A stretch of DNA of 36,778 bases from a virus (IMGVR_UViG_3300010293_000018:1-36778), one strand, 5' to 3'; positions 3,479-30,281 are shown, numbered from the stretch's first letter. Translations and numbers: made by a program. The notes: generated from the letters alone by a model not told the origin.

Positions 3479-6400
3479 ATGTTTGACTTCATGATGATTT
3501 CGACTCGCTCTAGACACGGTGTCGTCGAGATCTATCCGAAGTTCATAGTGATGAATAATAGCCAGGATTTGATGATTAGGGGTGGCGATTTCTATGCCAT
3601 CTGGATCGAGAGTCTTGGTCTATGGTCGACGAATGAGGGTGACGTTATTCAATTAATCGACGCAGAACTTGACGGTTATGCGAAGTCCATGAAGGCCAAA
3701 TTTGAAGACCATGTGAAAGTTTTATATATGTGGGACGCAGAATCTGGGGTGATCGATTTATGGCATAAATACTGTCAGAAGCAACTTCGCGATAATTACG
3801 TCCCGCTCGACGAAAAGCTCATATTTTCAAACCAGGAAACAAAAAAGGAAGACTACGCAAGTAAAAAATTGAATTACCCACTGGAAAAGGGTTCAACTGA
3901 GGCTTTCGATGAACTCCTATCGACTTTATATTCCGAGGAAGAACGACATAAAATTCAATGGGCTATCGGTGCTGTCGTTACTGGTCAATCCAAAACCATA
4001 CAAAAGTTTTTGGCTTTCTATGGTCCCCCTGGTAGTGGTAAATCGACCGTTCTCAACATAATCGAGGCACTATTCAATGGATATTCTGCTACTTTTGACG
4101 CCGAGGCTCTCGGTTCCGCTACTAATGCATTCGCCCTTGAACAATTCAAATCAAATCCATTGGTGGCTGTGTGTCATGACGCAGATCTCTCAAAGATCGA
4201 AAAAAATACAACACTCAACAGTTTAACGTCTCACGAGAGACTGTTAGTGAACGAAAAATATTCAAAGCAGTACTCTATGAGATTTAATAGCTTCCTTTTC
4301 ATCGGTACAAACAAACCAGTGAAAATAACAGATGCAAAATCCGGTTTGATACGAAGATTGATCGATGTCCATCCTTCGGGAAACAAGCTACCCTTTGCTA
4401 GATACAATAGACTTGTGAAGCAGATCCCATTTGAGCTCGGAGCCATTGCGGAGAAGTGTAAGGGTATATTCTTGGAAGATATCGAGGCTTATGACGACTA
4501 CAAACCTACTCTGATGATGGGTGAGTCCAACGACTTTTATAATTTCATGCTTGATAGTTACTCTGTCTTTCGAAAAGACGACGGCGTTACATTGAAAGCT
4601 GCATGGGAGATGTATAAAGAGTATTGTGAGGATGCAAAAGTCCCATACCCATTTTCGAAAAGGATATTCAAATCTGAGCTTACAAACTATTTCAAAGAAT
4701 ACGAAGATAGGGTCAGAGTCGGCGATGACTGGGTAAGATCATATTTCTCAGGATTTAGGATCGAAGCGTTCGAACCGACCAAGAAGGACAAACAAGCGAG
4801 AGCTAAGGAAAGACTCAAAGAAAGAGAGAGTTTCCTAAATCTGTCTGAACAGCATTCTGTACTTGATGATATTTGTGCAGAATGTCCGGCCCAATACGCA
4901 AATGAGCATGGGACGCCAATGATAAAGTGGATCGATGTAAATACGAAGTTGAAAGACCTAGACACCACTAAAGTTCACTATCTTAAGGTCCCAGAAAATC
5001 TTATAGTCGTTGATTTTGATATGACTGATGAAAGTGGCGAGAAATCGCTCGATAGAAATCTCGAGGAGGCTAGTAAATGGCCAAAGACCTACACGGAAGT
5101 TAGTAAAGGTGGGTCTGGGATTCACCTTCATTATATATTTGACGGGGATACGTCAACGTTGAGTAGGATGTATGCTGACTCTATTGAGATAAAGATATTT
5201 ACAGGTAACAGCGCACTCAGGCGTAGGTTATCTCTCTGCAACAGCGAGTCTATAGCAAAAATAAGCTCTGGGTTGCCAATGAGGGAGGCAAAAGTGGTAA
5301 ACTTTGATAGTGTAAAGAATGAAAAGGCCATAAGGACAATGATCAGAAAGAATCTTAATAAAGAGTACCATGGTGCAACAAGGCCTTCGGTAGACTTTAT
5401 ATTTAAGATTCTAGAAGATGCCTATAATGCTGGAATAAAGTACGATGTTAGTGACATGTTCAATTCTGTTCTGTCATTTGCTGCCGCCAGCACAAATCAG
5501 TCGGACTACTGTTTAAGACTTATTCCGAAAATGCATTTTAAATCGGACGAGCCATCAGACCCGATGAGCAATGAAGAGAAACAAGTAATATTTTTCGATA
5601 TGGAAGTCTTCCCGAATGTTGTTTTCCTCAACTGGAAGTTCGAGGGTTTAGGCAAATCCATGAATAGGGTCATAAATCCGACCTCTAAATACATTGAATG
5701 GTTCCTTGGCATTGGCAAGTTGGTTGGTTTTAACTGCCGAAAGTATGACAATCATATTTTGTATGCCATTTTCATTGGAAAGACGGTTCCTGAAGTGTAT
5801 ATGTTGTCCCAGAGAATGATCAAAGAGCAAAAGGGATATTTTGGAGAGGCTTATAACATCAGTTACACCGATGTTTATGATTACTCTATTGACAAAAAAA
5901 GTCTGAAAAAATGGCAAATCGAACTCAATCTTCATCATAAAGAGTTGGGTTTGGATTGGGATAAGCCTGTCCCGGAAGAGTTGTGGTCAAAGGTCTCGGA
6001 ATATTGCGACAACGACGTCGTTTCGCTGGAAGCTGTCTGGCATGAGACAAAATCCGACTTTGAAGGTAGACAGATTCTAGCTGATATTACTGGTATGTCC
6101 GTCAACGAGACTACTAATAAACTAACAGCAAAACTTATATTTGGGAACGATATGAGTCCTGCTTTGAATTATGTGGATTTATCTGAAGAGTTTCCTGGTT
6201 ATGAGTTTGTAAAGGTCTGGAATAATGAGACTAAAAAATACGACAAGTTCAATATGTATCGCGAGGTGGATCTTGGCTTCGGAGGCTTTGTTTATGCAGA
6301 GCCTGGCATGTATGGAAACGTGGCATTACTTGACGTTGTCAGCATGCATCCACACTCTGCGATAGCAATGAATTATTTTGGTAAGTATACTCCTAGATTC

Positions 6401-7426
6401 GAGGAGTTAGTGAATTCCCGAGTATTCATTAAAAATGGGGAATATGCGGTTTTGGAGAATCTATTCGAGGGTAAATTAATGAAATATTTGATTGGCCCTG
6501 AAGTTGCTGCAAAACTATCAGCCGCTCTGAAAGTAGCAATCGTTTCTGTGTATGGCTTGACTTCTGCCGGATTTGACAACATCTTCAAAGATCCCAGAAA
6601 CGAGAATAACATTGTTGCTTTGCGAGGAGCTTTATTTATGAAAACTCTACAAGATGAAGTGGTCAAAAAGGGTTTCAAAGTTGTACACATCAAAACAGAC
6701 TCGATAAAAATCCCCGACGCAACTCCAGAGATCATATCTTTCTGCAAAGAGTTTGCTAGGAGTTATAAATACGACTTTGATCACGAAGCCACATATGATC
6801 GGATCACTCTTGTTAATGACGCCGTTTATATTTCTAAATACATGTCGAGAGACCTGTGCTTGGAGCAATACGGTTATATACCAAAGAAGAACAGGACAGA
6901 AGAAAACACTTGGGTTGCTGTTGGGACTCAATTCCAGATTCCCTATGTTTTCAAAAAGTGTTTTAGCCATGAACCTATTGTCTTCAGAGATTTCTGCGAA
7001 GCCAAAGAAGTCAAATCTTCAACTATATATTTGAACTTTGGGGCTCAGGATCCAGTGGACGAGGCATCTTTGAGGTTTATTGGTCGCATTGGGTTATTTA
7101 CCCCGATACGAGAAGAGTTTAATGCAGCATATTTAGTCAAGGCTGTCGTCAAGAAGGATGGGAGCACTGGGTATGATGCGGTTACCGGAACGAAAGGATA
7201 CAAATGGCTCGAGTCGGAAGAGGTTGTCGACAAGGGTATGCAGAATTGCGTCGATGAGTCTTATTATGTAAGACTCGTTGACAACGCGATTGATTCGATT
7301 AACAAATTCGGGGATTATGAATGGTTCGTAAGTGACGACCCATATAAGAGACCCCCTTTGGTAGACGGTCGTCCAAACTATAATCACGACAATTTACAAA
7401 TCGATAATCCGTTTAGGTTTTCTTAA
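3479..7426 (+). CDS. Replication protein: SF3 helicase, AEP primase, DnaQ-like exonuclease and family-B-like DNA polymerase in one chain
   Basis: The product has 1,315 residues. Residues 85-420 are a D5-type SF3/AAA+ helicase: Walker A G182-P-P-G-S-G-K188-S-T190, Walker B-like region CHDAD (D234/D236), then FLFIGTNKPV. Residues about 430-600 look like an archaeo-eukaryotic primase: VVDFD (D512, D514), SKGGSGIHLHY (H549/H551) and IEIKIF (E570, K572). Residues about 700-860 carry DEDDy exonuclease motifs: FFDME (D707, E709), FN-CRKYD (N752, D757) and YCDND (Y842, D846). The polymerase palm follows: motif A LLDVVSMHP (D952), motif B KVAIVSVYG (K1018-G1026) and motif C KTDS (D1074). Together they would unwind, prime, extend and proofread phage DNA. 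Similar fused proteins are known from gut-phage metagenomes. The first aspartate of the usual DTDS is lysine, and the motif B asparagine is valine. Confidence 0.88.
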   Translation: MFDFMMISTRSRHGVVEIYPKFIVMNNSQDLMIRGGDFYAIWIESLGLWSTNEGDVIQLIDAELDGYAKSMKAKFEDHVKVLYMWDAESGVIDLWHKYCQKQLRDNYVPLDEKLIFSNQETKKEDYASKKLNYPLEKGSTEAFDELLSTLYSEEERHKIQWAIGAVVTGQSKTIQKFLAFYGPPGSGKSTVLNIIEALFNGYSATFDAEALGSATNAFALEQFKSNPLVAVCHDADLSKIEKNTTLNSLTSHERLLVNEKYSKQYSMRFNSFLFIGTNKPVKITDAKSGLIRRLIDVHPSGNKLPFARYNRLVKQIPFELGAIAEKCKGIFLEDIEAYDDYKPTLMMGESNDFYNFMLDSYSVFRKDDGVTLKAAWEMYKEYCEDAKVPYPFSKRIFKSELTNYFKEYEDRVRVGDDWVRSYFSGFRIEAFEPTKKDKQARAKERLKERESFLNLSEQHSVLDDICAECPAQYANEHGTPMIKWIDVNTKLKDLDTTKVHYLKVPENLIVVDFDMTDESGEKSLDRNLEEASKWPKTYTEVSKGGSGIHLHYIFDGDTSTLSRMYADSIEIKIFTGNSALRRRLSLCNSESIAKISSGLPMREAKVVNFDSVKNEKAIRTMIRKNLNKEYHGATRPSVDFIFKILEDAYNAGIKYDVSDMFNSVLSFAAASTNQSDYCLRLIPKMHFKSDEPSDPMSNEEKQVIFFDMEVFPNVVFLNWKFEGLGKSMNRVINPTSKYIEWFLGIGKLVGFNCRKYDNHILYAIFIGKTVPEVYMLSQRMIKEQKGYFGEAYNISYTDVYDYSIDKKSLKKWQIELNLHHKELGLDWDKPVPEELWSKVSEYCDNDVVSLEAVWHETKSDFEGRQILADITGMSVNETTNKLTAKLIFGNDMSPALNYVDLSEEFPGYEFVKVWNNETKKYDKFNMYREVDLGFGGFVYAEPGMYGNVALLDVVSMHPHSAIAMNYFGKYTPRFEELVNSRVFIKNGEYAVLENLFEGKLMKYLIGPEVAAKLSAALKVAIVSVYGLTSAGFDNIFKDPRNENNIVALRGALFMKTLQDEVVKKGFKVVHIKTDSIKIPDATPEIISFCKEFARSYKYDFDHEATYDRITLVNDAVYISKYMSRDLCLEQYGYIPKKNRTEENTWVAVGTQFQIPYVFKKCFSHEPIVFRDFCEAKEVKSSTIYLNFGAQDPVDEASLRFIGRIGLFTPIREEFNAAYLVKAVVKKDGSTGYDAVTGTKGYKWLESEEVVDKGMQNCVDESYYVRLVDNAIDSINKFGDYEWFVSDDPYKRPPLVDGRPNYNHDNLQIDNPFRFS

Positions 7427-16464: not shown

Positions 16465-17103
16465 ATGCAATGGAATGATCACCATGAGTTAGAAGGAAAG
16501 CACGCTTTCTTGGGAGCGAGCAATTTCAGATGGATGAATCAGAACGACGTAGATTTCGAAAAAAGGTATTATGCACAATTTGCAACCTCGATCGGCACAG
16601 CCATTCACGAATTAGCAAAAGACTGTATTGACAGTCGAATGAAGTTAACTAAACATGATAAGCGTTTAGTTGAATATTCGATGTACAAGAATGGCATTCC
16701 AAAAAGAGCCTATGACCCAGACACAATCTTAACAAATCTCCTCCCCTTCGTTAATGATGCAATTGGATACCGTATGAGTTCTGAGATTATTCTTTTCTAT
16801 AGTTATAATAGTTTTGGAACGACCGACGCAATAGTGTTTAACGAAAAAGAGAAGACTCTTCGAATTCATGATTTAAAGACGGGCACAACGCCAAGTCATA
16901 TTGAGCAGTTAATAGTGTACGCAGCCTTATTCTGTCTAGAATACAAAAAGAAACCGAAGGATTTTACAACAGAACTTCGTATTTATCAAAGTTCGGAAAT
17001 TTTAAATTATACAGCGGAGCCGATGGAGATCGAAAAGACAATGGAACTCATCAAACTCAGAGACTCGGACATAAAAGAATATTACGAGGGGGATTTTAGA
17101 TAA
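16465..17103 (+). CDS. RecB/Cas4-like PD-(D/E)XK exonuclease
   Basis: This gene encodes 212 residues, with AGGGAGA upstream. Motifs: N-terminal SIGTAIHELAKDCI (His in the usual GxxxHE position), then GTTDAIVF (D121), IHDLKTG (D136, K138) and QLIVYAALF (Q-x(3)-Y). This is the RecB C-terminal nuclease signature, without the four iron-sulfur cysteines of Cas4. Such phage proteins work as 5'-3' or end-processing exonucleases in recombination. TAATG overlap couples it to the large DFDGD protein at 17103, so the three genes 16112-20078 form an operon. Confidence 0.82.
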   Translation: MQWNDHHELEGKHAFLGASNFRWMNQNDVDFEKRYYAQFATSIGTAIHELAKDCIDSRMKLTKHDKRLVEYSMYKNGIPKRAYDPDTILTNLLPFVNDAIGYRMSSEIILFYSYNSFGTTDAIVFNEKEKTLRIHDLKTGTTPSHIEQLIVYAALFCLEYKKKPKDFTTELRIYQSSEILNYTAEPMEIEKTMELIKLRDSDIKEYYEGDFR

Positions 17104-20078
17104 TGGAAGACGACGAGAACAAAAAAATTGAGGACCAAACATTATCGCATTATGGAATGCCCAGACGTTCGGGTCGATATCCTTGGGGATCTGGAGAAAC
17201 CCCCTATCAAGGCGAAGGCGATTTTCTTAGTAGAATCCAGCCTTACAGAGATAAGGGAATGACCGATAATGAAATTGCAAAGGAACTCGATATTTCTACC
17301 ACAAAGTTTAGACAAAATCAGAGTCTGGCGATTGATCAAAGAAAGTCGGATCTTGTCGCTAGAATAAAGAGCATGCAGTCTGATGGATTGAGCAATCCAA
17401 AGATTGCGGCTGAACTCGGATTGGCTGGAGAATCCACGGTACGGTCTTTACTAGCGTCAGACGCAAAATCAAGACTTAAAATTGCAAGAAAAGCAGCCGA
17501 CTCTATTCGTGAAATTATCGATGAAAAGGGTATGCTTGACGTTGGTGTTGGCGTGGAACGAGAACTTGGCATCTCCAGAGAAAAATTAGGTCAAGCAATC
17601 CAGATTCTGCAAGAAGAGGGTTATTTACTTTACCCAGGAAGAGTTCCACAATCTACCAATAAGGGTAAATATACAACCATAAAAGTTTTGTGTCCTCCCG
17701 GAACACAGCATAAAGAAATCTATGAATATGACAAGATCAATCATTTGACTGATTATATTTCTAGAGATGAAGGGGATACATTTGAACCAGGTTTTATTTA
17801 CCCATCTTCTCTTAATTCTGATAGGATTCAAATTCGCTATGCAGAAGAAGGCGGAAAAGAAAAAGACGGGGTCGTTGAACTTAGAAGAGGAGTTCCTGAT
17901 ATTTCTCTAGGCTCTTCGAATTATGCTCAAGTTCGTATTCTGGTAGATGGAACTCATTACATCAAGGGCATGGCTTTATATTCAGATAACATGCCCGAAG
18001 GTGTCGATATTGTCTTCAATACCAATAAAAAAATCGGAACTGACAAGATGAAAGTTCTTAAGGCCATCAAAGAAGACCCCGACAATCCGTTTGGTTCTGC
18101 AATTAAGGAACATGGTGGGCAATCATATTACATCGATCCTGTCACCGGAGAAAAGAAACTCTCCGTAATCAACAAAAGAGCAGATGAGGGTGATTGGGGA
18201 GAATGGTCGAAAGAGTTGTCTTCTCAATTCCTATCAAAACAGCCAACGAAAATGATTGAGAAACAAATTAATTTGGCTATGGTTGACAAAAATGCAGAAT
18301 TTAACGAGATCATGTCTCTTACGAATCCAACAGTAAAGAAAGCCTTACTTGAAGCATTTGCAGATGACTGTGACTCGTCAGCTGTTCACCTTAAAGCTGC
18401 GTCTCTTCCTGGAACTCACTATAAAGTTATATTGCCAATCGGCTCTTTAAAAGATGATGAAACATACGCTCCCCATTTGAAAGATGGAACACAAGCGGCT
18501 CTAATTCGTTTTCCGCATGGAGGAACGTTTGAGATTCCGATTGTAACTGTAAATAATCGTAATAAAGAAGGCATCAGTGTTTTAACGCCAAATCCTCAAG
18601 ATGCAATCGGTATTAATTCCAAAGTTGCGGAACGTTTGTCCGGAGCTGATTTTGATGGTGACACTGTAATGGTTATTCCACTTAGCGAAACCGTTAAGAT
18701 CAAATCCACACCCGCTCTTAAAGGCTTGCAAGGGTTTGATACAAAAATGACTTACGGACCGGATAGTAGTAAAATTGGATCCGATGGGATAGAACATTTT
18801 TATAGAGGTGAAAAAGAAATCTCCGTTATGAAGGAATCAAATCTTCAGTTGAAAATGGGGATTGCCTCGAACCTCATCACAGACATGACATTGAAAGGCG
18901 CCACAGATGAGGAAAAAACCCGTGCCGTAAAGCATTCAATGGTTGTAATCGATGCTGTAAAACATCATCTTGATTATAAACAAAGCGAAATTGATAATGG
19001 GATTAAGGCTCTACACAAGAAGTATCAAGGCCACATTGATCCCGAAACGGGCCGTGAAAGACAAGGTGCCGCAACTCTTATTTCTAGAGCAAAATCAGAA
19101 GTCACAATTAATGAGAGAAAAGAAGCACCTGGATATTTTGCAAAAGATACTGGGAACAGACTCATTCTCGTTGATGAAGACAATAAGGTATTTTTGGATG
19201 AAGAGAGCGGTAGATTCTACTCTGAAAAAGAGAAAAGAACGTTATATGCTGATCCAAAAACAGGGGAAAAGTTGTATAAAGACACGGGTAGAGAATATAC
19301 AAAAGTTCATTACAAGGATTCCACTGGAAAGAGTCAAACGTCCACTGGTATTGTCAGAGATGGCAGACTATTTTACAAAGATGAAGATAAAAAATGGATT
19401 GAGGTCACGAGTGAGAAATTCAAGACACAACTTGCGACTATGAAATCCACAAGAATGGCAGAGGCCAAAGATGCTAGAGAACTTTCTTCTGGCACTCCAC
19501 AAGAAGAGCTTTATGCGACATATGCAAATAGTCTTAAGGCTCTAGGCAATGAGGCTAGAAAAGCCTTTTTGGCAATTAAGGAGATATCGTACTCTCCCTC
19601 TGCAAGACAGACCTATCAACAAGAGGTTAATCAACTAGAAGAGAAGCTCAATAGGGCCCTCCTAAACGCACCAAAGGAGCGCTATGCTCAAATGCTTGCC
19701 GCTACAAGAATCAAGGCGAAGCTAGCTGGTGTTGTAACATTGACCCCCGAACAAGAGAAGAAGATAAGACAACAAGAACTCTCTAGAGCCAGAGTAAAAG
19801 TTGGAGCAAAGCGTAGCAACATTCGTCTTGAGATGAGAGAATGGGAAGCAATTCAAGCTGGTGCTATAACAAAGACAAGACTTGAACAAATCATTGCGAA
19901 CTCTGACTTAGACATTCTCAGACAACTAGCGATGCCTAGAGCCACAACTGTTCTCAGTGACAACAAAGTAAGAAGATTGATCAGCATGTCTGCTTCTGGA
20001 TACACTTCATCTGAGATCGCAGATGCTTTGAACATTCCAGTATCAACGATCAGTAACTATCTGAGAAAGGAGGAATAG
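17103..20078 (+). CDS. Candidate single-chain RNA polymerase (DFDGD motif) with HTH domains and N-terminal LSHYG...PWGSG tag
   Basis: The product has 991 residues. Residues 14-36 carry the tag LSHYG, then RRSGRYPWGSGE. Residues 44-75 and 80-115 look like two helix-turn-helix units (MTDNEIAKELDISTTKF; LSNPKIAAELGLAGESTV). A central part holds RFPHGG (R469-P471) followed by ERLSGADFDGDTVMVIPL with D516-F-D518-G-D520. ADFDGD is the metal-binding loop of the beta'-subunit double-psi barrel of cellular RNA polymerases and, as DxDGD, of YonO-like phage enzymes and RNAi polymerases; R-x-P before it also fits. The last 35 residues form a third HTH (GYTSSEIADALNIPVSTISNYL). It lacks separate beta and beta' subunits. 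It probably transcribes phage genes, but activity is not proven. Confidence 0.72.
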   Translation: MEDDENKKIEDQTLSHYGMPRRSGRYPWGSGETPYQGEGDFLSRIQPYRDKGMTDNEIAKELDISTTKFRQNQSLAIDQRKSDLVARIKSMQSDGLSNPKIAAELGLAGESTVRSLLASDAKSRLKIARKAADSIREIIDEKGMLDVGVGVERELGISREKLGQAIQILQEEGYLLYPGRVPQSTNKGKYTTIKVLCPPGTQHKEIYEYDKINHLTDYISRDEGDTFEPGFIYPSSLNSDRIQIRYAEEGGKEKDGVVELRRGVPDISLGSSNYAQVRILVDGTHYIKGMALYSDNMPEGVDIVFNTNKKIGTDKMKVLKAIKEDPDNPFGSAIKEHGGQSYYIDPVTGEKKLSVINKRADEGDWGEWSKELSSQFLSKQPTKMIEKQINLAMVDKNAEFNEIMSLTNPTVKKALLEAFADDCDSSAVHLKAASLPGTHYKVILPIGSLKDDETYAPHLKDGTQAALIRFPHGGTFEIPIVTVNNRNKEGISVLTPNPQDAIGINSKVAERLSGADFDGDTVMVIPLSETVKIKSTPALKGLQGFDTKMTYGPDSSKIGSDGIEHFYRGEKEISVMKESNLQLKMGIASNLITDMTLKGATDEEKTRAVKHSMVVIDAVKHHLDYKQSEIDNGIKALHKKYQGHIDPETGRERQGAATLISRAKSEVTINERKEAPGYFAKDTGNRLILVDEDNKVFLDEESGRFYSEKEKRTLYADPKTGEKLYKDTGREYTKVHYKDSTGKSQTSTGIVRDGRLFYKDEDKKWIEVTSEKFKTQLATMKSTRMAEAKDARELSSGTPQEELYATYANSLKALGNEARKAFLAIKEISYSPSARQTYQQEVNQLEEKLNRALLNAPKERYAQMLAATRIKAKLAGVVTLTPEQEKKIRQQELSRARVKVGAKRSNIRLEMREWEAIQAGAITKTRLEQIIANSDLDILRQLAMPRATTVLSDNKVRRLISMSASGYTSSEIADALNIPVSTISNYLRKEE

Positions 20079-20086
20079 AGTATAAT

Positions 20087-20395
20087 ATGAGCAAGGAAAT
20101 CAGAGTTACAACAGCAGACAACCCTTATGACCCATTCAATGAGTGGGAAAAATGGCTATTGTTTGACACAAACAAGGGATACCACACCTGCGAAAGACTT
20201 GCTTCTGTTACTACTGTATCCGATCAGTTCTCAGATGATGAGGTTTACGAAGCCGTTGAGAATGGTATTGCAGAACTCATGAAGACAGGTGCAATTAACA
20301 AACTTGGTGAAATCGTAGAGTTTAAGAAAGTAGTCAAAGAGGTTCCAGATATGATTCAAGAAGCTCCTGTTGACGAAACAGGGGCAAGCAACTAA
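20087..20395 (+). CDS. Small conserved acidic protein following the RNAP-like gene
   Basis: This gene encodes 102 residues, with AGGAGGAAT about 14 bases upstream inside the previous stop region. The sequence DNPYDPFNEWEKWLLFDTNKGYHTCERLASV, then VSDQFSDDEVYEAVENGIAELMKTGAINKLGE, is a family I know from Bacillota phages directly downstream of large proteins like the 17103 product. The function is unknown. The constant neighbourhood suggests an accessory factor of the RNAP-like protein or of packaging. It is acidic, with no membrane helix. A 356-base non-coding region follows. Confidence 0.75.
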   Translation: MSKEIRVTTADNPYDPFNEWEKWLLFDTNKGYHTCERLASVTTVSDQFSDDEVYEAVENGIAELMKTGAINKLGEIVEFKKVVKEVPDMIQEAPVDETGASN

Positions 20396-20751
20396 TTTGG
20401 TACATTACTATTCTGTACCTGTATACTGTTTGTGTCTATTCTGTGTGGTGGTACCTATAGGGAGGGGTCGTGAAAAACACACCCCCCCTTGCCATCGCGC
20501 CGGTCTTAAAAATTCCCCCGGAGGTATATTTAGGTGGATATTTTCAACACTCGGTTGGCTGCTTAATCGAATACATAAGAAATTACCTAGCTGAAACAGG
20601 CATGGTTCCTCTTCCCGATTTCTCCTTTCTCCCTCTCTCTGTCCAAATCCGTGGATATTGCTGGGTAAGGCCTTGTGTATTCCATTAAGTAGCTAACCTA
20701 AATTGCTAAAACTATTCCAAACTTAGTAGAAACTCAGGAAAGGAGAAGCAA
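20396..20751 (+). other. Non-coding region with GC hairpin, candidate packaging (cos) region
   Basis: There is no credible gene here. The stretch has a GC hairpin: GGAGGGGT-C-GTG (20461-20472), loop AAAAA, CACACCCCCCC (20478-20488). CCCCCGGAGG (20515-20524) then lies before an AT-rich TATATTTAGGTGGATATTTTC. The region directly precedes the likely small terminase and HNH genes, where cos sites of Bacillota siphophages are usually found, and C/G clusters are typical of cohesive ends. The cut position cannot be told from sequence alone. A promoter for the packaging operon may also be here. Confidence 0.4.
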
Positions 20752-22183: not shown

Positions 22184-22717
22184 ATGCGAAACACTTATAT
22201 TGTCAAAAGAACAAACGTTTTATCCCACGCCGGAATCAAAGACATGAAGTGGGGTATTCGGCGTTTCCAGAACAAAGACGGGACTCTAACTGAGGCTGGA
22301 AAACTTCGATATAGGAGTGGCGGGGATTTTGCCCAATCGGTAGATTCCCGTGGTAGGAGAACCGAGAATATGACCGAGGAAGGTAAGAAAAACTACAGCT
22401 CAAGAGCCTCCGTTGCTTCGAATGTCTCGAAAGGTCTTGAATCTGCGGCAAAACTTACCGATATCGGGAAACAAAAATCAAAGACTACTAGACCAAACTA
22501 CGATAATGTTACTGATGAAGAACTCAAGAAACGTGTTGCAAGATTGAGTTTGGAAGAGCAATATGGGAGACTTTCCGGAGACGCCAAAAAGGTCCGCACT
22601 GGTTCCGATTGGGTTCATGAGATTCTTCAGACGGGTTCGATTCTGGCAAGTATGGCGGGCACTGCTGTCTCAATTTATATTGCATTAAAAGCTTTAAGGG
22701 GCGGAAAAGTCGTATGA
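22184..22717 (+). CDS. HxG-WG-R tag protein 1 (C-terminal TM)
   Basis: This gene encodes 177 residues. The tag LSHAGIKDMKWGIRRFQNKDGTLTEAGKLRYR is at residues 12-44. A polar middle follows, then TDEELKKRVARLSLEEQYGRLSG, a helical segment. A C-terminal hydrophobic stretch (IASMAGTAVSIYIALKAL) is probably membrane-spanning. The tag matches the recurrent H-x-G-x-(K/L/P)-(G/D)-(M/Q)-(K/R)-WG-x-R-(R/K)-(F/-)-Q pattern found in the next genes. It is common in Bacillota phage proteins, but its role is not known to me. Here the tyrosine is alanine (HAG). The stop region overlaps the next ATG. Confidence 0.8.
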   Translation: MRNTYIVKRTNVLSHAGIKDMKWGIRRFQNKDGTLTEAGKLRYRSGGDFAQSVDSRGRRTENMTEEGKKNYSSRASVASNVSKGLESAAKLTDIGKQKSKTTRPNYDNVTDEELKKRVARLSLEEQYGRLSGDAKKVRTGSDWVHEILQTGSILASMAGTAVSIYIALKALRGGKVV

Positions 22718-23118
22718 TCCGCGTAACATATCCGAACGAGCTTTCTCACTATGGTGTCAAAGGTATGCGTTGGGGCCATCGTAAACTCGAAAAAGCTGCC
22801 AAAAGAATCTCCAACAAAAGGAAAGAGAAGATAAAAGCCGCTCCAGCGAAAGATGCAATAAGAACCGGTTTCAAAACCTATGCTTCGATGTTGGCCACAG
22901 GACTCCTGACAAGCACAATAGCAGGTTTGATGATTGGGAAAGCCAGAGCCACTGGCTCACTACTTTCGGTTGGGCAAGCGAGAGCTGTTAAGATTCTTTC
23001 GAAAGTTGGGACGTTTACGTTTAACAATGCCGCACTTATCGGTGTATCCGCAGCCGTAAAACAATCGAAAGTGAACGATTATATTTTAAAAGAGAATCAA
23101 GAAGGAGGAGCCTCATGA
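22714..23118 (+). CDS. HxG-WG-R tag protein 2 (membrane, basic)
   Basis: This gene encodes 134 residues. The N-terminus MIRVTYPNELSHYGVKGMRWGHRK is the tag. A very basic helix follows (KLEKAAKRISNKRKEKIKA), then hydrophobic segments ATGLLTSTIAGLMIG and FTFNNAALIGVSAAV. The pattern of tag, basic patch and membrane segments recurs in genes 23115 and 26713. It is probably a small virion or ejected protein, which is inference. It overlaps the previous gene by four bases and the next one too. Confidence 0.8.
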   Translation: MIRVTYPNELSHYGVKGMRWGHRKLEKAAKRISNKRKEKIKAAPAKDAIRTGFKTYASMLATGLLTSTIAGLMIGKARATGSLLSVGQARAVKILSKVGTFTFNNAALIGVSAAVKQSKVNDYILKENQEGGAS

Positions 23119-23441
23119 ACAGACAAGCATATCCCAATGAACTTTATCACTACGGAGTATTAGGAATGCGTTGGGGGCAAAGAAAAGCCTCCGGTGGAAA
23201 CGGCATTCAAAGCAAGATCAAATTACCAAAAAACACATCCCCAACACCCAGAACGCCAGACGAACAAAAAGCCAGAGCCCGTCGAATTCGTCGGGGGATG
23301 GTTGTCGGTGGGTCCATCCTCGCCCTTATCGGAGCCGGTATCGTCGCTGATAACAAATTTGCTGCTCGTCAAGGTCTTCCGAGTATTATTGATCTTGGAA
23401 AAGTGTGGGCAACTAAGGCTACCAAAGGTAGCATTCTATGA
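23115..23441 (+). CDS. HxG-WG-R tag protein 3 (single TM)
   Basis: This gene encodes 108 residues, from ATG 23115 with AAGGAGGAG just upstream. The tag is MNRQAYPNELYHYGVLGMRWGQRK. A proline-rich basic linker (LPKNTSPTPRTPDEQKARARRIRRG) follows, then one hydrophobic segment (MVVGGSILALIGAGIVA). The first 20 bases are almost identical to those of the 23438 and 26713 genes, which shows recent duplication or recombination. Function unknown. Confidence 0.8.
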   Translation: MNRQAYPNELYHYGVLGMRWGQRKASGGNGIQSKIKLPKNTSPTPRTPDEQKARARRIRRGMVVGGSILALIGAGIVADNKFAARQGLPSIIDLGKVWATKATKGSIL

Positions 23442-23926
23442 ACAGACAAGCATATCCGAATGAGCTTTACCACTATGGCATTTTAGGTCAAAAGTGGGGT
23501 GTTCGACGTTTTCAGAATCCCGATGGTTCTCTGACAGAGGCTGGAAAAAAAAGAGTGTCAAAAGAATTCGATAAAACGTTCGATGCTGGGTATAAAAAAT
23601 ACGCAAAAACAGGCCCTCATTTGAATGCTTATAACAGAGCGGCCGATGAAATGAATAATGGCATGATTGACAAATTCAATAAAAAACATTGGAAACCGAA
23701 CATGACGGAAAGCCAGCAGGACGATTATGTTCACGCGTATGAGAATCTATTCGAAGAGATCTACACCAAACATCAACACGATTTGGTAAAAGAATTCTCC
23801 AAAACTAGCCCAGAATTTAAGTTTGCGGAGGATGTTTTAAAAAAATACGGGAGTGAGTTTGTCGGACCCAAAAACGAGTGGAAAGTCAACTTCATAAAAG
23901 AACATCTCATTACTAAGAAGGACTGA
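23438..23926 (+). CDS. HxG-WG-R tag protein 4 (soluble)
   Basis: This gene encodes 162 residues. Its tag YHYGILGQKWGVRRFQNPDGSLTEAGKKR has the long form with the extra FQNPDGSLTEAG, like proteins 22184 and 25670. The rest is a soluble helical domain (FDAGYKKYAKTGPHLNAYNRAADEMNNGMIDKFNKKH, then DDYVHAYENLFEEIYTKHQHDLVKEF) with no membrane segment. The ribosome site is AAAGGTAG inside the preceding gene. It differs from its neighbours, which are membrane proteins, so the tag is attached to unrelated cargo domains. It directly precedes the terminase. Confidence 0.8.
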   Translation: MNRQAYPNELYHYGILGQKWGVRRFQNPDGSLTEAGKKRVSKEFDKTFDAGYKKYAKTGPHLNAYNRAADEMNNGMIDKFNKKHWKPNMTESQQDDYVHAYENLFEEIYTKHQHDLVKEFSKTSPEFKFAEDVLKKYGSEFVGPKNEWKVNFIKEHLITKKD

Positions 23927-23930
23927 TATT

Positions 23931-25673
23931 ATGCTCTCTAATACGGCTGTGCCAATCTATTACGGCCGCTTTAGAGAAGCGGTTCTTGACGGAAGAATCC
24001 CTGTTTGTAAAGAGATTTCAATGGAGATGAATCGCATTGATAATCTTATAGCAGACCCTAACTTTTACTACGATGATTTAGCCGTGGAGGGTTTTATAAA
24101 GTACTGCGAGAACGAATTAACGCTGACAGATGGTACTGACTTGGTTCTTCTTGACTCCTTTAAACTATGGGCCGAGCAAATTTTCGGTTGGTATTACTTT
24201 GTAGAACGAAGTGTCTTTGTTCCGAGTAAGGATGGGAGAAGCGGTTACTATGAGAAGCGTTTTATCAAGAAGCGCCTCGTCAACAAGCAGTACCTAATCG
24301 TTGCTCGTGGAGCAGCTAAATCCATGTACGGCTCTGTTCTACAAAGTTACTCTCTGAACATTGACACATCAACCACATATCAGGTAACAACCGCCCCAAC
24401 AATGAAACAGGCTGAAGAGATTCTATCTCCTATCAGAACATCTATCGCAAGAGCGAGAGGACCCCTATTCAAATTTTTAACAGAGGGCTCTTTGCAAAAC
24501 ACCACTGGCTCCAAAGCGAACAGAGTCAAGCTTGCAGCGACAAAGAAAGGTATTGAAAACTTTTTGACTGGATCGTTGATCGAGATAAGACCTATGCGGA
24601 TTGACAAGCTTCAAGGTCTTCGCTGTAAGGTTGCAACAATCGACGAATGGCTATCTGGTGACGTTCGAGAGGATGTAGTAGGGGCCATAGAGCAAGGTGC
24701 TTCGAAAGTTGAAGACTATCTTATCGTTGCAATGTCTTCTGAAGGCACTGTTCGTAATGGTAGTGGTGATTCAATCAAAATGGAGTTGATGGACATACTT
24801 CGCGGAGAGTATTACAACCCACACGTGTCCATTTGGTATTACAGACTTGATTCTATCGATGAAGTCTCCGATCCAAACATGTGGCCAAAAGCCAATCCAA
24901 ACATTGGGAAGACGGTTTCCTACGAAACCTATCAACTTGACGTGGAAAGAGCCGAGAAAGCCCCCGCAACAAGGAACGATATTCTAGCAAAGCGCTTTGG
25001 TATACCGATGGAAGGCTACACTTACTTCTTTACCTATGAAGAAACACTTCCTCATAGAACTAGAGATTTTTGGAAATTGCCTTGCGCTCTTGGTGCAGAC
25101 CTTTCACAGGGCGATGACTTCTGCGCCTTCACATTCCTATTTCCTCTGAAAGGTGAAACTTTTGGTGTAAAGACTAGAAGCTACATAAGCTCTTTCACCC
25201 TTCACAAACTTCCCCCAGCGATGAGGTCAAAGTATGATGAGTTTATGCAAGAGGGCTCTTTGATTGTATTTGAAGGGACTATTCTTGACATGATGATAGT
25301 CTATGACGATCTTGATAGGTTTATTATCGCACATGGCTACGATGTAAGAGCTTTGGGATTTGACCCATATAATGCAAAAGAGTTTGTCGAAAGATGGACT
25401 TCAGAAAATGGTGCATATGGAGTCGAAAAAGTAATTCAAGGTGCTAGAACAGAGTCGGTCCCGCTTGGAGAATTGAAGAAACTAGCGGAACAAAGGTCTC
25501 TCATATTTGACGAAGAGCTCATGACTTTTGCGATGAGTAACTGTATAACCATGGAAGACACAAATGGTAATAGAAAGCTCTATAAGAAGCGTCAAGAAGC
25601 AAAGATTGATAATGTTGCCGCTTTGATGGATGCTTTTGTTGCTTATAAACTTAATAAGGAGGCGTTCGAATGA
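23931..25673 (+). CDS. terL: Terminase large subunit
   Basis: This gene encodes 580 residues. The N-terminal ATPase has ARGAAKS (R126-S131, K130) as Walker A and TIDE (D238, E239) as Walker B. The C-terminal RNase H-like nuclease has GADLSQGDD (D390), LGFDPYN (D478) and KIDNVAALMDA (D560, D567). It cuts concatemeric DNA and drives it into the prohead at the portal. The Walker A is RGAAKS instead of the common RGxGKS. The length is usual for this family. Uniquely in this window, it is flanked on both sides by tag proteins, with the 25670 ATG overlapping its stop (ATGA). Confidence 0.95.
   Translation: MLSNTAVPIYYGRFREAVLDGRIPVCKEISMEMNRIDNLIADPNFYYDDLAVEGFIKYCENELTLTDGTDLVLLDSFKLWAEQIFGWYYFVERSVFVPSKDGRSGYYEKRFIKKRLVNKQYLIVARGAAKSMYGSVLQSYSLNIDTSTTYQVTTAPTMKQAEEILSPIRTSIARARGPLFKFLTEGSLQNTTGSKANRVKLAATKKGIENFLTGSLIEIRPMRIDKLQGLRCKVATIDEWLSGDVREDVVGAIEQGASKVEDYLIVAMSSEGTVRNGSGDSIKMELMDILRGEYYNPHVSIWYYRLDSIDEVSDPNMWPKANPNIGKTVSYETYQLDVERAEKAPATRNDILAKRFGIPMEGYTYFFTYEETLPHRTRDFWKLPCALGADLSQGDDFCAFTFLFPLKGETFGVKTRSYISSFTLHKLPPAMRSKYDEFMQEGSLIVFEGTILDMMIVYDDLDRFIIAHGYDVRALGFDPYNAKEFVERWTSENGAYGVEKVIQGARTESVPLGELKKLAEQRSLIFDEELMTFAMSNCITMEDTNGNRKLYKKRQEAKIDNVAALMDAFVAYKLNKEAFE
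25653..25671 (+). repeat. 19-bp leader repeat, copy 1
   Basis: AATAAGGAGGCGTTCGAAT here recurs exactly at 26097-26115. This copy spans the end of the terminase gene and the ATG of the 25670 gene. A repeat that includes a ribosome site points to duplication of the translation-start cassette. Confidence 0.85.
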
Positions 25674-26101
25674 GCACTAGATATTACATAGCACACGAAG
25701 GTATCAAAGGTCAAAAATGGGGCGTTCGACGTTTCCAGAATGAAGATGGGACTCTAACTGAGGCAGGTAAAGAAAGATATTCAAAGAATTACAATGGTCA
25801 ACAACGAACAAGAGATAGGAGAATCTATGGACCAAACGCCGTTGAAAGAATTAACAAACGGATGTTGAATGGCGAATCGATTCAGAGTGCAAGGAATGCG
25901 GAAGTGAAGATCAAAAGAACAAAAGAGAGCGGAAAAGCTATTGGAAAAAATATCGCAAAAGCTGCTCTTATAGTAAGTGGTGCAGCTGCGGTTGCCATTC
26001 TTCTAAAAAAGAAGGGAATTGGTGGTGGAGTTGCCACTGATATATTGACCGAGCAAGTGGTTAATGTGGGTAGACAAGTCGTCAACTCTATATTTAAATA
26101 A
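25670..26101 (+). CDS. HxG-WG-R tag protein 5 (C-terminal TM)
   Basis: This gene encodes 143 residues, with AAGGAGG before the ATG. The tag is IAHEGIKGQKWGVRRFQNEDGTLTEAGKERYS (HEG, not HYG), again in the long FQ-x-DG-(T/S)-LTEAG form. The middle is basic and helical; a hydrophobic segment (AALIVSGAAAVAILL) lies near residue 107. The C-terminus is short and amphipathic. It may be an internal virion protein delivered with DNA, which is only inference. It lies between the terminase and the 26117 gene. Confidence 0.8.
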   Translation: MSTRYYIAHEGIKGQKWGVRRFQNEDGTLTEAGKERYSKNYNGQQRTRDRRIYGPNAVERINKRMLNGESIQSARNAEVKIKRTKESGKAIGKNIAKAALIVSGAAAVAILLKKKGIGGGVATDILTEQVVNVGRQVVNSIFK

Positions 26102-26115
26102 GGAGGCGTTCGAAT
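26097..26115 (+). repeat. 19-bp leader repeat, copy 2
   Basis: This is an exact second copy of the 25653-25671 sequence, here as the intergenic leader before the 26117 gene. The ATG is two bases further on than in copy 1 (GAATAATG). It supports tandem duplication of gene starts in this cluster. Confidence 0.85.
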
Positions 26116-26116
26116 A

Positions 26117-26701
26117 ATGGAACTTAGGAAAGACCACTATGATAAAGTTCCATCTCTTGTCTGCGAAGTTCTTGATAATTTGATAGAGAAGTATTCGGAC
26201 GAGGAATGGTTTGAAGAAGCCTGGAACAAGTACAGATCTTACGTTCTTAGGACATCGGCTGACAATCAGCGTATGCCCGGTTATATTTTCAAGCACTACA
26301 TCAAACCAGACACGGCCAAGCACTCTGATTATTTGATTCACTATGGTGTTCTTGGTATGAAGTGGGGAGTCAGGAAACAACAAGCCGATATTTCCAACGG
26401 TCGTAAAAGAACTCTCACGGATAAGCAAAAAAACACCCTAAAGACAGTTGGTATTCTGGCCGCTGGCGTGGCCGTTGGCGCGACTGCGGTTGGCGCGGCA
26501 TGGTATCTTAAGAATATGAAAAACAAAAAGATATTGCTCGCAAAGAGAGCCGCTGCGATCGCAAAAGGTCAAGCTACCAGAGCTGCAAGAAAAGCATCTG
26601 GAGAGTATCTCAAATTCAAAAACGTTGCCGTCACAATTTCAAAAGGAAGTGACTTCGTCAAGGAGTTCTCCGGTGTCAAACTTGCAAAACTCATTCTATA
26701 A
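26117..26701 (+). CDS. HxG-WG-R tag protein 6 (internal tag)
   Basis: This gene encodes 194 residues, with AAGGAGG in the duplicated leader. Unlike the others, it has about 70 residues before the tag: MELRKDHYDKVPSLVCEVLDNLIEKYSDEEWFEEAWNKYRSYVL, a helical domain. The tag YLIHYGVLGMKWGVRK follows at about residues 72-87. After it come a basic stretch, a hydrophobic segment (VGILAAGVAVGATAVGAAWYL) and a basic alanine-rich helix. The internal position may mean that an untagged domain was fused in front, or that the tag is exposed after cleavage by the prohead protease. The latter is speculation. Confidence 0.78.
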   Translation: MELRKDHYDKVPSLVCEVLDNLIEKYSDEEWFEEAWNKYRSYVLRTSADNQRMPGYIFKHYIKPDTAKHSDYLIHYGVLGMKWGVRKQQADISNGRKRTLTDKQKNTLKTVGILAAGVAVGATAVGAAWYLKNMKNKKILLAKRAAAIAKGQATRAARKASGEYLKFKNVAVTISKGSDFVKEFSGVKLAKLIL

Positions 26702-26712
26702 GGAGGAGCCTC

Positions 26713-27087
26713 GTGAACAGACAACCATATCCGAATGAACTTTACCACTATGGCGTTCCCGGCATGCGCTGGGGCCATCGTAAGGCTCGCATTGAGGAAA
26801 GAAAAGAAAGGCAAAGAAAACGCGGAATCGATCGCCCAATCGGGACCGCAATTGGAAAAGGTTTGATAACCTGGGGAGCCATCACTGCCGCTGGTTTAGC
26901 AACTGTAACTGTCGGTGCAATGTTGTTAAAAAGCAAAACCATGACCTTAGGTAAGTTAAAAGCCTCTGCTATGATCGTAAGTATTGGGAAACTCACAATG
27001 GGCTCGGCCGCTTTAGCCGGGGTAATTGCAGGCGGGGTTAAACTTGGAAAGAATCTAGACAACATAAAAAAACAAAATAATTCGTAA
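26713..27087 (+). CDS. HxG-WG-R tag protein 7 (membrane, GTG start)
   Basis: This gene encodes 124 residues, from GTG 26713 with AAGGAGGAGCCTC, the same leader as the 23115 gene. The tag is MNRQPYPNELYHYGVPGMRWGHRK, followed by a basic helix (IEERKERQRKRG) and two hydrophobic segments (ITWGAITAAGLATVTVGAMLL; LTMGSAALAGVIAGGV). It closely resembles protein 2 in layout. It is the last tag gene before the portal gene. The GTG start replaces the ATG of its copy. Confidence 0.8.
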   Translation: MNRQPYPNELYHYGVPGMRWGHRKARIEERKERQRKRGIDRPIGTAIGKGLITWGAITAAGLATVTVGAMLLKSKTMTLGKLKASAMIVSIGKLTMGSAALAGVIAGGVKLGKNLDNIKKQNNS

Positions 27088-27104: not shown

Positions 27105-28520
27105 ATGGGCTTTATTGATAGACTACAACATGCCTGGAATGCATTTGTAGAAAACGATCTCTCGAGAGGGAGACGTGATTACGTCAACCTAGGATATTCC
27201 ACCTCGTTTCGCCCAGACAGACTATTTCTAAGCAGAGGAAACGAGAAGTCCATTGTCAATGCGATTTACAATCGCATAGCTCTCGACTGCGCGTCTATCA
27301 TCATAAGGCATGTCCGCCTTGACGACAATGGAAGATTCATAAACGAAGTTCCGAGTGGACTTAACAATTGCCTATCCGTTGAGGCCAACAAAGATCAAAG
27401 TGCGATCGCCTTCATGCAAGATATTGTGATCTCTATGTTTGATGAAGGGGTCGTTGCAATCGTCCCGGTAGATACCAGTATCAATGCGGTAGAGTCGAAC
27501 TCCTATGATATTCTGTCCTTGCGAACGGGACGGATTACTCAATGGTATCCGGACCACGTCCGCATTGATGTTTACAACGATCAAAAAGGAATGAGGGAAG
27601 AAATTACAGTGCCGAAGAAAATTGTCGCCATCGTTGAGAATCCCTTATATTCTGTCATGAATCAAAAGAACTCAATGCTTCAGAGACTCGTCCAAAAGCT
27701 GAATTTGCTTGATGCGATTGACCAGCAATCCGGATCTGGCAAATTGGATCTTATCATCCAGTTACCATATGTAATAAAAACTGACGAAAGACGTAAACAG
27801 GCGGACCTCAGACGAGCTGATATTGAATCCCAGCTTTCTGGTTCTAAATATGGTGTGGCGTATACGGATGGTACTGAAAAGGTTACGCAGTTGAATCGTC
27901 CAGTGGAAAACAATCTATTGAAGCAAGTCGAATTTCTAACGAGTATGTCATACGGCCAGTTAGGGATTACGCCAAGTGTCATGGATGGTACCGCTGACGA
28001 GAAAACCATGCTAAACTACCTCAACAGGACCATTGAGCCGGTTGTTGCAGCGATCGCTCAAGAGATGAATCGAAAATTCTTGACGAAAACCGCCAGAAGC
28101 CAAAAACAGACCATTAAGTATTTCAACAATCAGTTTAAACTGGTCCCCCTCGGAAACCTTGCCGAAATCGTGGACAAATTCACCAGAAACGAAGTTTTGT
28201 CTCCGAATGAAATTAGGCAAATTATTGGCATGAAGCCGGCTTCTGACCCGAAAGCCGACGAACTCAGGAATAGGAACATTAATGCCAATGGTCAAATGAT
28301 TGAGTATACCGAAGAAGGAGAGGCCGGTCATTCCGGTCTGCCGAGAGTCATTGAATCGTCTGACAAAGGCAGGAAAAAATTCAAAATTAAGCTCATCAAT
28401 CAGGGCGGACATGAAGTAGAATTTCTTGTTTTAGCGAAGGATGAAGAAGATGCGGTAAAGGCAGCGATCGACGGTACCGATGTGCCACGAGAGAACATTA
28501 AACTCGTGGAAGCTATTTAG
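27105..28520 (+). CDS. Portal protein
   Basis: This gene encodes 471 residues, with GAAGGAGA before ATG 27105. The sequence MGFIDRLQHAWNAFV, the long alpha/beta body and QLGITPSVMDGTADEKTMLNYLNRTIEPVVAAIAQEMNRKFL are typical of HK97-type portals: the LG-x-PxxxL loop and the long helical crown are visible. The C-terminal 60 residues contain HEVEFLVLAKDEEDAVKAAIDG, an extra small domain beyond the usual core. Twelve copies form the entry ring for DNA and bind the terminase. It precedes the protease-capsid fusion by 20 bases. Confidence 0.9.
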   Translation: MGFIDRLQHAWNAFVENDLSRGRRDYVNLGYSTSFRPDRLFLSRGNEKSIVNAIYNRIALDCASIIIRHVRLDDNGRFINEVPSGLNNCLSVEANKDQSAIAFMQDIVISMFDEGVVAIVPVDTSINAVESNSYDILSLRTGRITQWYPDHVRIDVYNDQKGMREEITVPKKIVAIVENPLYSVMNQKNSMLQRLVQKLNLLDAIDQQSGSGKLDLIIQLPYVIKTDERRKQADLRRADIESQLSGSKYGVAYTDGTEKVTQLNRPVENNLLKQVEFLTSMSYGQLGITPSVMDGTADEKTMLNYLNRTIEPVVAAIAQEMNRKFLTKTARSQKQTIKYFNNQFKLVPLGNLAEIVDKFTRNEVLSPNEIRQIIGMKPASDPKADELRNRNINANGQMIEYTEEGEAGHSGLPRVIESSDKGRKKFKIKLINQGGHEVEFLVLAKDEEDAVKAAIDGTDVPRENIKLVEAI

Positions 28521-28540
28521 GATGGAGGTACAAAATCAAA

Positions 28541-30256
28541 ATGGCGAAGAAACCAAAAGGTAGTTTCGACTTCGCAGGATGGGCGACTCGTTTCAACATC
28601 AAGTGTTCCGACGGGAGAACCATCAAAAACGAAGCTTTCATGCATCATGATGGAATGACGGTGCCTCTCGTCTGGGGGCATAAGCACAATGATATTGACA
28701 ACGTATTGGGTCATGCGTTGTTGGAATTTCGTGAGAACGAGGGTATTTATACCTACGGCTCGTTCAACAGCACAGACGAAGGAAAAAGAGCTAAAGAAAT
28801 GGTCTCCCATGGGGATATTACGGCTCTTTCTATCTATGCGAACAAATTGAAACATAAGGGCTCCGACGTAGTCCACGGTGAAATCAAGGAAGTAAGCTTG
28901 GTTCTCGCCGGAGCAAATCCGGGAGCCCACATCGAGACCGTTCTCGCACACAGCGAGGATGAGGGAGATGAAGCGGTTATTTTCAATGTAAGTGATCAAC
29001 TGTTTCTTGAACATTCTGATCAACAGGATGATGAAGAAAAAAACCCCAAGGAGGACACGAAAGTGGAAAAAACGGTTCAGCAAGTTTTTGACGAGTTCAG
29101 CGAAGAGCAAAAGAACGTCGTCTACGCAATGATCGGCCTTGCCCTCGAAGAAGGCGGCAAAAAAACCCAGGAGGAAGACACGATGAAGCAAAATCTGTTC
29201 AACAACACCCAGCAAAATGATGAAGAAAGCATCCTCAAACACGAAGAAGTTCTCGAAGCCATCAAGGACGCCAAGAAGGTCGGGTCGCTGAAGACTTCGT
29301 TCCTCGAACATGGAATCACGGACGTCTCGCAACTGTTCCCCGAGACCCAGGCCGTCAATCGTACGCCGGAGACCATCTCCCGCGACATGAACTGGGTCCA
29401 GAAGGTCATGAGCAAAGTCAAGCACTCGCCCTTCTCCCGCGTCAAATCGACCGCCGTCAATCTCACCGCCGATGAAGCCAAAGCGAAAGGCTACATCAAG
29501 GGCGACCAAAAGGCCGAACAGGTCATCGTCGCTCTGAAGCGCTCGACGACCCCCCAGACCATCTACATCAACCAGAAAATGGACCGTGACGACGTCGTCG
29601 ACATCACCGATTTCGACGTTGTCGCCTTCCTTAAATCCGAAATGCGAATCCTTCTCGACGAAGAAATCGCCCGTGCCATCCTGATCGGCGACGGCCGCCT
29701 GGCCTCCGACGAACACAAGATCAAGGCCGACAACGTTCGCCCGATCCTCGGCGACAATGCGGTCTACACCGTTCCGAAGATCATGGAACCGGCCAGCGGC
29801 GAAAGCGAATACGCCTTTGCCAAGCGTCTGATCAAAGAAATCATCAAAGCCCGCAAGGACTACAAAGGCTCCGGAAATCCGGACTTCTTCACGACCGAAG
29901 ACATGCTCACCAACATGCTTCTGATCGAAGACACCAATGGCCGCGTCATCTATGAAACCGTCGACCGCCTGAAAACGGCGCTTCGCGTTTCCGACATCAT
30001 CACCGTTCCGGTCATGGAAAACGTCGTTCGTACCAACGATGCTAGCACCTTCGACTACACCTGCCTCGGCATCCTCGTCAACCTGAACGACTACAACGTC
30101 GGCGCGGACAAGGGTGGCGCGGTCTCCATGTTCGAAGATTTCGACATCGACTACAACAAGGAAAAATACCTCATCGAAACCCGCATCTCCGGCGCGCTCA
30201 TCAAGCCGTATTCGGCGATCAGCTTCGAACTCAAAACGAACCACGTCGCCGGCTAA
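28541..30256 (+). CDS. Fusion of prohead protease and major capsid protein
   Basis: This gene encodes 571 residues. Residues 1-150 resemble HK97-type prohead protease: VPLVWGHKH (H47) and DITALSIYA (S97), the His-Ser pair of this serine protease, then VVHGEIKEVSLVLAGANPGA. Residues 150-215 are an acidic, helical, scaffold-like linker. From about residue 215 the HK97-fold capsid protein follows (PFSRVKSTAVNLTADEAKAKGY, DITDFDVVAFLKSEMRILLDEEIARAILIGDGR). Two internal in-frame starts have good ribosome sites: GTG 29063 (V175, AAGGAGG at 29048) and ATG 29183 (M215, AGGAGG at 29169). So a free capsid protein may be made besides the fusion. The capsid part uses C-ending codons, unlike the protease part. 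Confidence 0.9.
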   Translation: MAKKPKGSFDFAGWATRFNIKCSDGRTIKNEAFMHHDGMTVPLVWGHKHNDIDNVLGHALLEFRENEGIYTYGSFNSTDEGKRAKEMVSHGDITALSIYANKLKHKGSDVVHGEIKEVSLVLAGANPGAHIETVLAHSEDEGDEAVIFNVSDQLFLEHSDQQDDEEKNPKEDTKVEKTVQQVFDEFSEEQKNVVYAMIGLALEEGGKKTQEEDTMKQNLFNNTQQNDEESILKHEEVLEAIKDAKKVGSLKTSFLEHGITDVSQLFPETQAVNRTPETISRDMNWVQKVMSKVKHSPFSRVKSTAVNLTADEAKAKGYIKGDQKAEQVIVALKRSTTPQTIYINQKMDRDDVVDITDFDVVAFLKSEMRILLDEEIARAILIGDGRLASDEHKIKADNVRPILGDNAVYTVPKIMEPASGESEYAFAKRLIKEIIKARKDYKGSGNPDFFTTEDMLTNMLLIEDTNGRVIYETVDRLKTALRVSDIITVPVMENVVRTNDASTFDYTCLGILVNLNDYNVGADKGGAVSMFEDFDIDYNKEKYLIETRISGALIKPYSAISFELKTNHVAG

Positions 30257-30281
30257 GATCTGACCGGCCTGGAAATTCAAA

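Follow-up and report, generated by a model that had tools for sequence, protein, structure and literature searches.

What is the role of a large phage protein that combines helix-turn-helix (HTH) units with the catalytic loop of an RNA polymerase (RNAP), and why does it begin with a short, nearly invariant peptide? The question is raised by a gene at positions 17103–20078 (+ strand, as are all features below unless stated otherwise) of the phage contig IMGVR_UViG_3300010293_000018:1-36778, the whole of which, 36,778 bases, is referred to here as the window. The open reading frame (ORF), already recognized in the initial annotation, is real and encodes a protein of 991 amino acids. The protein is almost certainly an RNAP. 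Its assignment to the single-chain class with two double-psi beta-barrels (two-barrel RNAPs), which the initial annotation had proposed, is supported by fold matches and invariant catalytic residues. We lean slightly towards a model in which this enzyme is packaged in the virion, trimmed by a protease, and injected together with the DNA.

A polymerase core in a catalogued family

The catalytic motif SGADFDGDTVMVIPL, which contains ADFDGD, spans residues S513–L527. The initial annotation had noted its likeness to the beta' motif and was right about D516, D518, and D520; its numbering (514–528) was one residue off. The R-x-P that it placed before the loop is present as R469-F-P471-H472, N-terminal to the motif. 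The 51 aligned relatives show no variation at D516, D518, D520, R469, P471, H472, K288, G289, K309, and K320, and for this reason, the motif is not a matter of chance. The protein could still be an RNAP derivative that has lost catalysis and serves a structural or DNA-binding role, and many records name it merely an HTH DNA-binding protein. Such a loss of function is very unlikely, since the catalytic residues all stay invariant while the overall identity to the window protein drops to 44% among the relatives. We infer that the enzyme is catalytically active.

Two barrel regions can be delimited. Barrel A (residues ~235–330; 17805–18092) is defined by the invariant K288-G-M and N-x-N-K309 and by a fold match. 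Barrel B (~436–530; 18408–18692) is defined by R469-x-P471-H472, the catalytic D516-x-D518-G-D520, which fits the metal-binding D-x-D-x-D motif, a fold match, and a Pfam RdRP match below the cut-off (residues 507–630, E = 0.0075). The modeled helices 578–621 (18834–18965) lie where a bridge helix would be expected by analogy and form a candidate bridge-helix region. The comparison of a sequence profile with PDB chains returned HTH and helical matches only and no polymerase, so a fold search was required. An AlphaFold model was built from the 51 relatives, with a mean predicted local distance difference test (pLDDT) score of 81.5. In VIA, the model matched QDE-1 (Z 17.3, root-mean-square deviation 4.5, 387 residues) and maize RDR2 (Z 17.5), and these matches take in both barrel regions (model residues 236–828; 387–455 residues). 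The Thermus phage proteins 8f5m (P74-26 gp62) and 8f72 were matched with Z 14.4 and 13.3, and the multisubunit RNAPs, with Z of ~10, scored well under all of these. Foldseek agreed with VIA (E ~1e-5), with low TM-scores (~0.27) that may reflect domain placement. In a search of viral models, it found two significant matches, each of which bears the name RNA-dependent RNA polymerase. The second barrel, which the initial annotation had suggested looking for in a predicted structure, is supported together with its conserved basic residues by the invariance of K288 and K309 and by the QDE-1 match.

The names and the nearest solved folds, QDE-1 and plant RDR2, might suggest an enzyme that copies RNA templates, as in the title of its protein family, PHROG_4291 (“RNA-dependent RNA polymerase”). 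This function is highly improbable. The name is based on homology, QDE-1 entries include DNA-template complexes, the phage relatives that have been tested (YonO, P23-45 gp96, and gp64) act on DNA, and HTH arrays suit duplex DNA. The polymerase is probably DNA-dependent. QDE-1 and RDR2 are the best fold matches over both barrels, but they are eukaryotic RNA-silencing enzymes with 10–18% identity to the window RNAP in the alignments. To our knowledge, neither has an HTH array or a tag.

The two N-terminal HTH units (~41–118; 17223–17456) and the C-terminal one (~950–990; 19950–20072) listed in the initial annotation are recovered. The N-terminal pair is seen in the models, in an NCBIfam Cbp1-type match at 44–138 that is under the curated cut-off, and in fold matches to DosR, an archaeal factor, and ParB/KorB (Z 5–6). 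The C-terminal unit is matched above the cut-off by Pfam GerE, HTH_23, and Sigma70_r4_2 at 955–988. The initial count of three HTH units missed a winged-helix-like unit (~119–197; 17457–17693), seen in the model, for which the fold matches to the TFIIIC tau138 eWH (Z 7.4) and TFIIE (Z 6.0) are only suggestive. All N-terminal fold matches are below Z 8; therefore, we claim no more than the general HTH/winged-helix class. Built-in promoter recognition by such predicted units is plausible.

The enzyme family is already catalogued, and the polymerase is not a new kind. PHROG_4291 covers the 991-residue protein end to end (E 0, 1164.9 bits, profile positions 5–908 of 909). Homologues were detected by tblastn in at least 250 phage records, 241 of which cover at least 80% of its length, with hosts that are for the most part Arthrobacter, Gordonia, Streptomyces, and Lactococcus; frequent labels are “helix-turn-helix protein” and “RNA-dependent RNA polymerase”. 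The initial view that the arrangement had not been described fails for the architecture, the whole of which exists in PHROG_4291, and holds for biochemistry: no biochemical study of any member of the family was found in the literature. FP_oengus gp55, Arthrobacter phage Circum gp98, Lactococcus phage 1706 orf75, and ReqiPepy6 gp106 have the same tag, N-terminal HTHs, core, and C-terminal HTH as the window protein, in a gene neighborhood of the same kind. They differ from it by sequence divergence only (~43–47% identity to the best isolates and up to 64% to metagenomic relatives). The RNAP is present in all 29 clade contigs that were chosen via other genes. Copies also occur on bacterial contigs, many of them from Lachnospiraceae, Oscillospiraceae, and other gut genomes, and are presumably prophages. 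The contigs L351, L398, and L403, assigned to genomes of WOR-3, Absconditabacteria, and Bathyarchaeum, also have copies and are probably mis-binned phage contigs.

An N-terminal tag and a capsid-fused protease

The part of the protein that we consider the most informative is an N-terminal tag that was missed in the initial annotation. It occupies residues 14–31 (LSHYGMPRRSGRYPWGSG; 17142–17195), takes the form LxHxG...SGRYPWGSG after a leader, and includes a putative cleavage site after H16 (17148–17150). In the 51 relatives, L14 is conserved in 45, H16 in 50, and G18, S23, G24, R25, G29, and G31 in all. The tag is predicted to be disordered (pLDDT <50) although it is near-invariant, and it is kept in 76 of the 79 RNAP copies on bacterial contigs. 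The stretch up to the histidine is unconserved and 5–32 amino acids long. When phages were searched with only the tag as query, 252 records were matched, with the same set of genera as the RNAP; among the matches listed, all but one weak match fall on the RNAP protein.

This form can be likened to the capsid-targeting sequences of phage T4, which are propeptides of 10–20 amino acids and are cut at LxE/IxE in the internal proteins and Alt (PMC5694885). Both are short N-terminal leaders that close on a hydrophobic-x-residue site for the head protease. The RNAP leader with its terminal LxH is of the T4 type in form only, LxH being a presumed protease site. Unlike in T4, the P1 residue is His and not Glu, the conserved tag runs on past the site, and the cleavage in the RNAP is a prediction.

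A protease with a matching preference may be encoded in the window itself. The S78 head maturation protease is fused to the major capsid protein (28541–30256), with the sites LAH137, LEH158, LKH234, LEH257, and VKH295 in or beside the linker. In the linkers of 37 relatives with <60% identity, LxH occurs 97 times where 10.2 are expected, more enriched than any other pair at such spacing, and ExH is absent where 28.7 are expected. There are on average 4.7 [LIVM]xH sites per linker and at least three in each. The capsid bodies, in an earlier set of 42 relatives, contain a single LxH (11.9 expected). A site-rich linker that is removed and a mature protein that is nearly free of LxH form the pattern predicted by protease specificity, and the head proteases of T4 (ITE, LTE in Alt) and SPN3US (AxE) behave in a like manner (PMC5694885). 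LxH is likely the site of this protease. The enrichment falls short of proof of cleavage; several linker sites are conserved positions and not independent events. A 587-residue open frame lies antisense to the protease-capsid gene (28517–30280, − strand) and is presumably an artefact of codon use.

The beginning of the tag is also found in the head block. Seven ORFs at 22184–27087, around TerL (23931–25673), bear a motif such as ELYHYGVLGMRWGQRK, which matches Pfam DUF7211, above the cut-off in five of them; the seven ORFs are those at 22184, 22714, 23115, 23438, 25670, 26117, and 26713. The motif is 25 amino acids long and opens with the same LxHxG start as the RNAP tag. Among 240 distinct DUF7211-type contexts in the loci fetched, the histidine is present in 238 and the leucine at −2 in 218. 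Of 41 clade contigs, 40 contain DUF7211; among isolate phages, the genera with its motif are nearly the same as those with the RNAP. The DUF7211 coding tags form the largest repeat families in the window. The first 16 codons of several of the seven ORFs are very similar, which suggests a recent duplication of the tag.

In the Gordonia phage Secretariat, the tag accompanies enzyme-like domains. Its gp15 (L328:5989-7542) is polyprotein-like: a DUF7211 tag and a GNAT (acetyltransferase) domain are followed, after the sites LKH and VEH, by another tag and by a papain-fold-like domain, the last a sub-threshold Pfam match. In gp12, a LigT-like (phosphoesterase) domain is joined to the tag. By analogy, these tagged proteins resemble polyvalent proteins, a kind of packaged effector (PMC5512222). 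Literature searches for DUF7211 and for the tag strings gave no relevant paper. To the extent of these searches, both the delivery tag and the connection of this tag with the protease and DUF7211 appear to be new.

Packaging in the virion or synthesis during infection

The original GenBank deposit of phage 1706 (EU081845.1) labels the RNAP homologue orf75 “structural protein”. The ReqiPepy6 record carries this label too, on the basis of the similarity of its gp106 to 1706 gp75. In the RefSeq copy (NC_010576.1), the depositor’s label is replaced by “RNA-dependent RNA polymerase”, and it is possible that this homology name hides evidence for a virion RNAP. With the support of the 1706 label, we hold it to be fairly probable that the RNAP is packaged in the virion. 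The same deposit also labels orf62 and orf71, which are outside the head/tail block, “structural protein”; both are small proteins, and no LxHxG tag was seen in either.

There are precedents for polymerases of this class inside and outside the virion. P23-45 gp96 and gp64 and crAss-like phi14:2 gp66, the last likened to the window RNAP by description only, all belong to the single-chain two-barrel RNAPs of phages; gp96 and gp66 are carried in the virion, and gp64 is non-virion (PMC10770324). In gp96, the RNAP is a fusion with the tail tape measure; the window RNAP instead has a short N-terminal tag of the capsid type with a candidate protease site. In the model that we favor, the tag with its leader would recruit the polymerase into the procapsid, and the capsid-fused protease, cutting after (L/I/V/M)-x-H, would trim the RNAP leader after H16. 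This particular cleavage is an even bet. The RNAP would be ejected with the DNA and would transcribe phage genes early in infection, and its HTH and winged-helix units would contribute to promoter recognition.

A less probable, though serious, reading is that of a non-virion YonO-like polymerase, made during infection from the replication operon for late genes. The tag would have another role, such as contact with the capsid, the terminase, or a regulator, and LxH would be a coincidence. The RNAP gene overlaps the end of the upstream exonuclease gene by one base, which suits a YonO-like middle-gene role, and the order endonuclease–exonuclease–RNAP is kept in FP_oengus and Circum. YonO, itself a single-chain two-barrel RNAP, was shown to transcribe specifically the late genes of SPbeta (PMC5467207), and the non-virion gp64 is a further example. 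By eye, YonO has K-G, R-x-P-H, and D-x-D-G-D in the same order as the window RNAP; a comparison of the window RNAP profile with the single YonO sequence in hhalign gave no detectable similarity (probability 0.1). However, no such tag was seen in the YonO sequence, the 1706 deposit names the RNAP homologue a structural protein, the LxHxG start is common to the tag and the head-block proteins, and LxH is common to the tag and the protease linker.

Besides the gene overlap, several points weigh against packaging and trimming. The origin of the 1706 label in virion proteomics is presumed. At 110 kDa, the enzyme could probably exit via a siphovirus tail only in an unfolded state. The residues after the histidine differ, as the linker sites favor A/S/N/G followed by D/E, and the tags have H/Y/F/E/S followed by G. 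Pfam DUF7211 (PF23847) has no match above its curated cut-off at the N-terminus of the window RNAP, and its profile meets RNAP N-termini weakly, in four records and below the threshold (E 7e-4 to 6e-3). An avoidance of LxH in the RNAP body was considered as a sign of exposure to the protease and was dropped. In a column-controlled test, the first set gave 8 occurrences versus 19.3 expected, and 38 new sequences did not replicate this (11 versus 10.9); the test is noisy, since T-x-H deviated too.

The tag of the RNAP and DUF7211 could be two forms of one head-delivery system in a large phage clade whose hosts are mostly Gram-positive. In such a system, LxHxG tags would recruit the RNAP and effector-like enzymes, some of them as polyproteins, to the procapsid, the capsid-fused protease would cut after LxH, and the cargo would be injected with the DNA. 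We propose this wider reading tentatively, as a possibility that falls a little short of even. If it is true, DUF7211, a Pfam family of unknown function, gains a function, and there is a means of recognizing the proteins that these phages inject. If the packaging model is true, a common and unstudied phage RNAP family gains a function, a route of delivery, and a cleavage site that can be tested, and the enzyme, a single-chain two-barrel RNAP that is packaged and has HTH modules of its own, can inform us about sigma-free promoter finding. Cultured phages bearing the RNAP exist on Arthrobacter, Gordonia, Streptomyces, Lactococcus, and Faecalibacterium.

The genome end and a replication locus

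Downstream of the RNAP gene, a small conserved ORF (20087–20395) is followed by a strongly conserved noncoding element. The element is a predicted cos site (20460–20535, nick near 20506), because both termini of the 1706 and Circum records fall within it, and a 3′ cos overhang is annotated at this same end in the ReqiPepy6 record. Given this cos site, the packaged genomes of these phages would have the RNAP gene at one terminus. The stretch “CTATAGGGAG” (~20456–20465) was considered as promoter-like and was ruled out, since the conserved element around it is the cos site. A search of Rfam gave no match. Elsewhere in the window, positions 3479–7426 encode a protein of 1315 amino acids with a primase/D5-type helicase region and a DNA polymerase region (PHROG_4210), whose relative position is conserved in 1706, Circum, and FP_oengus.
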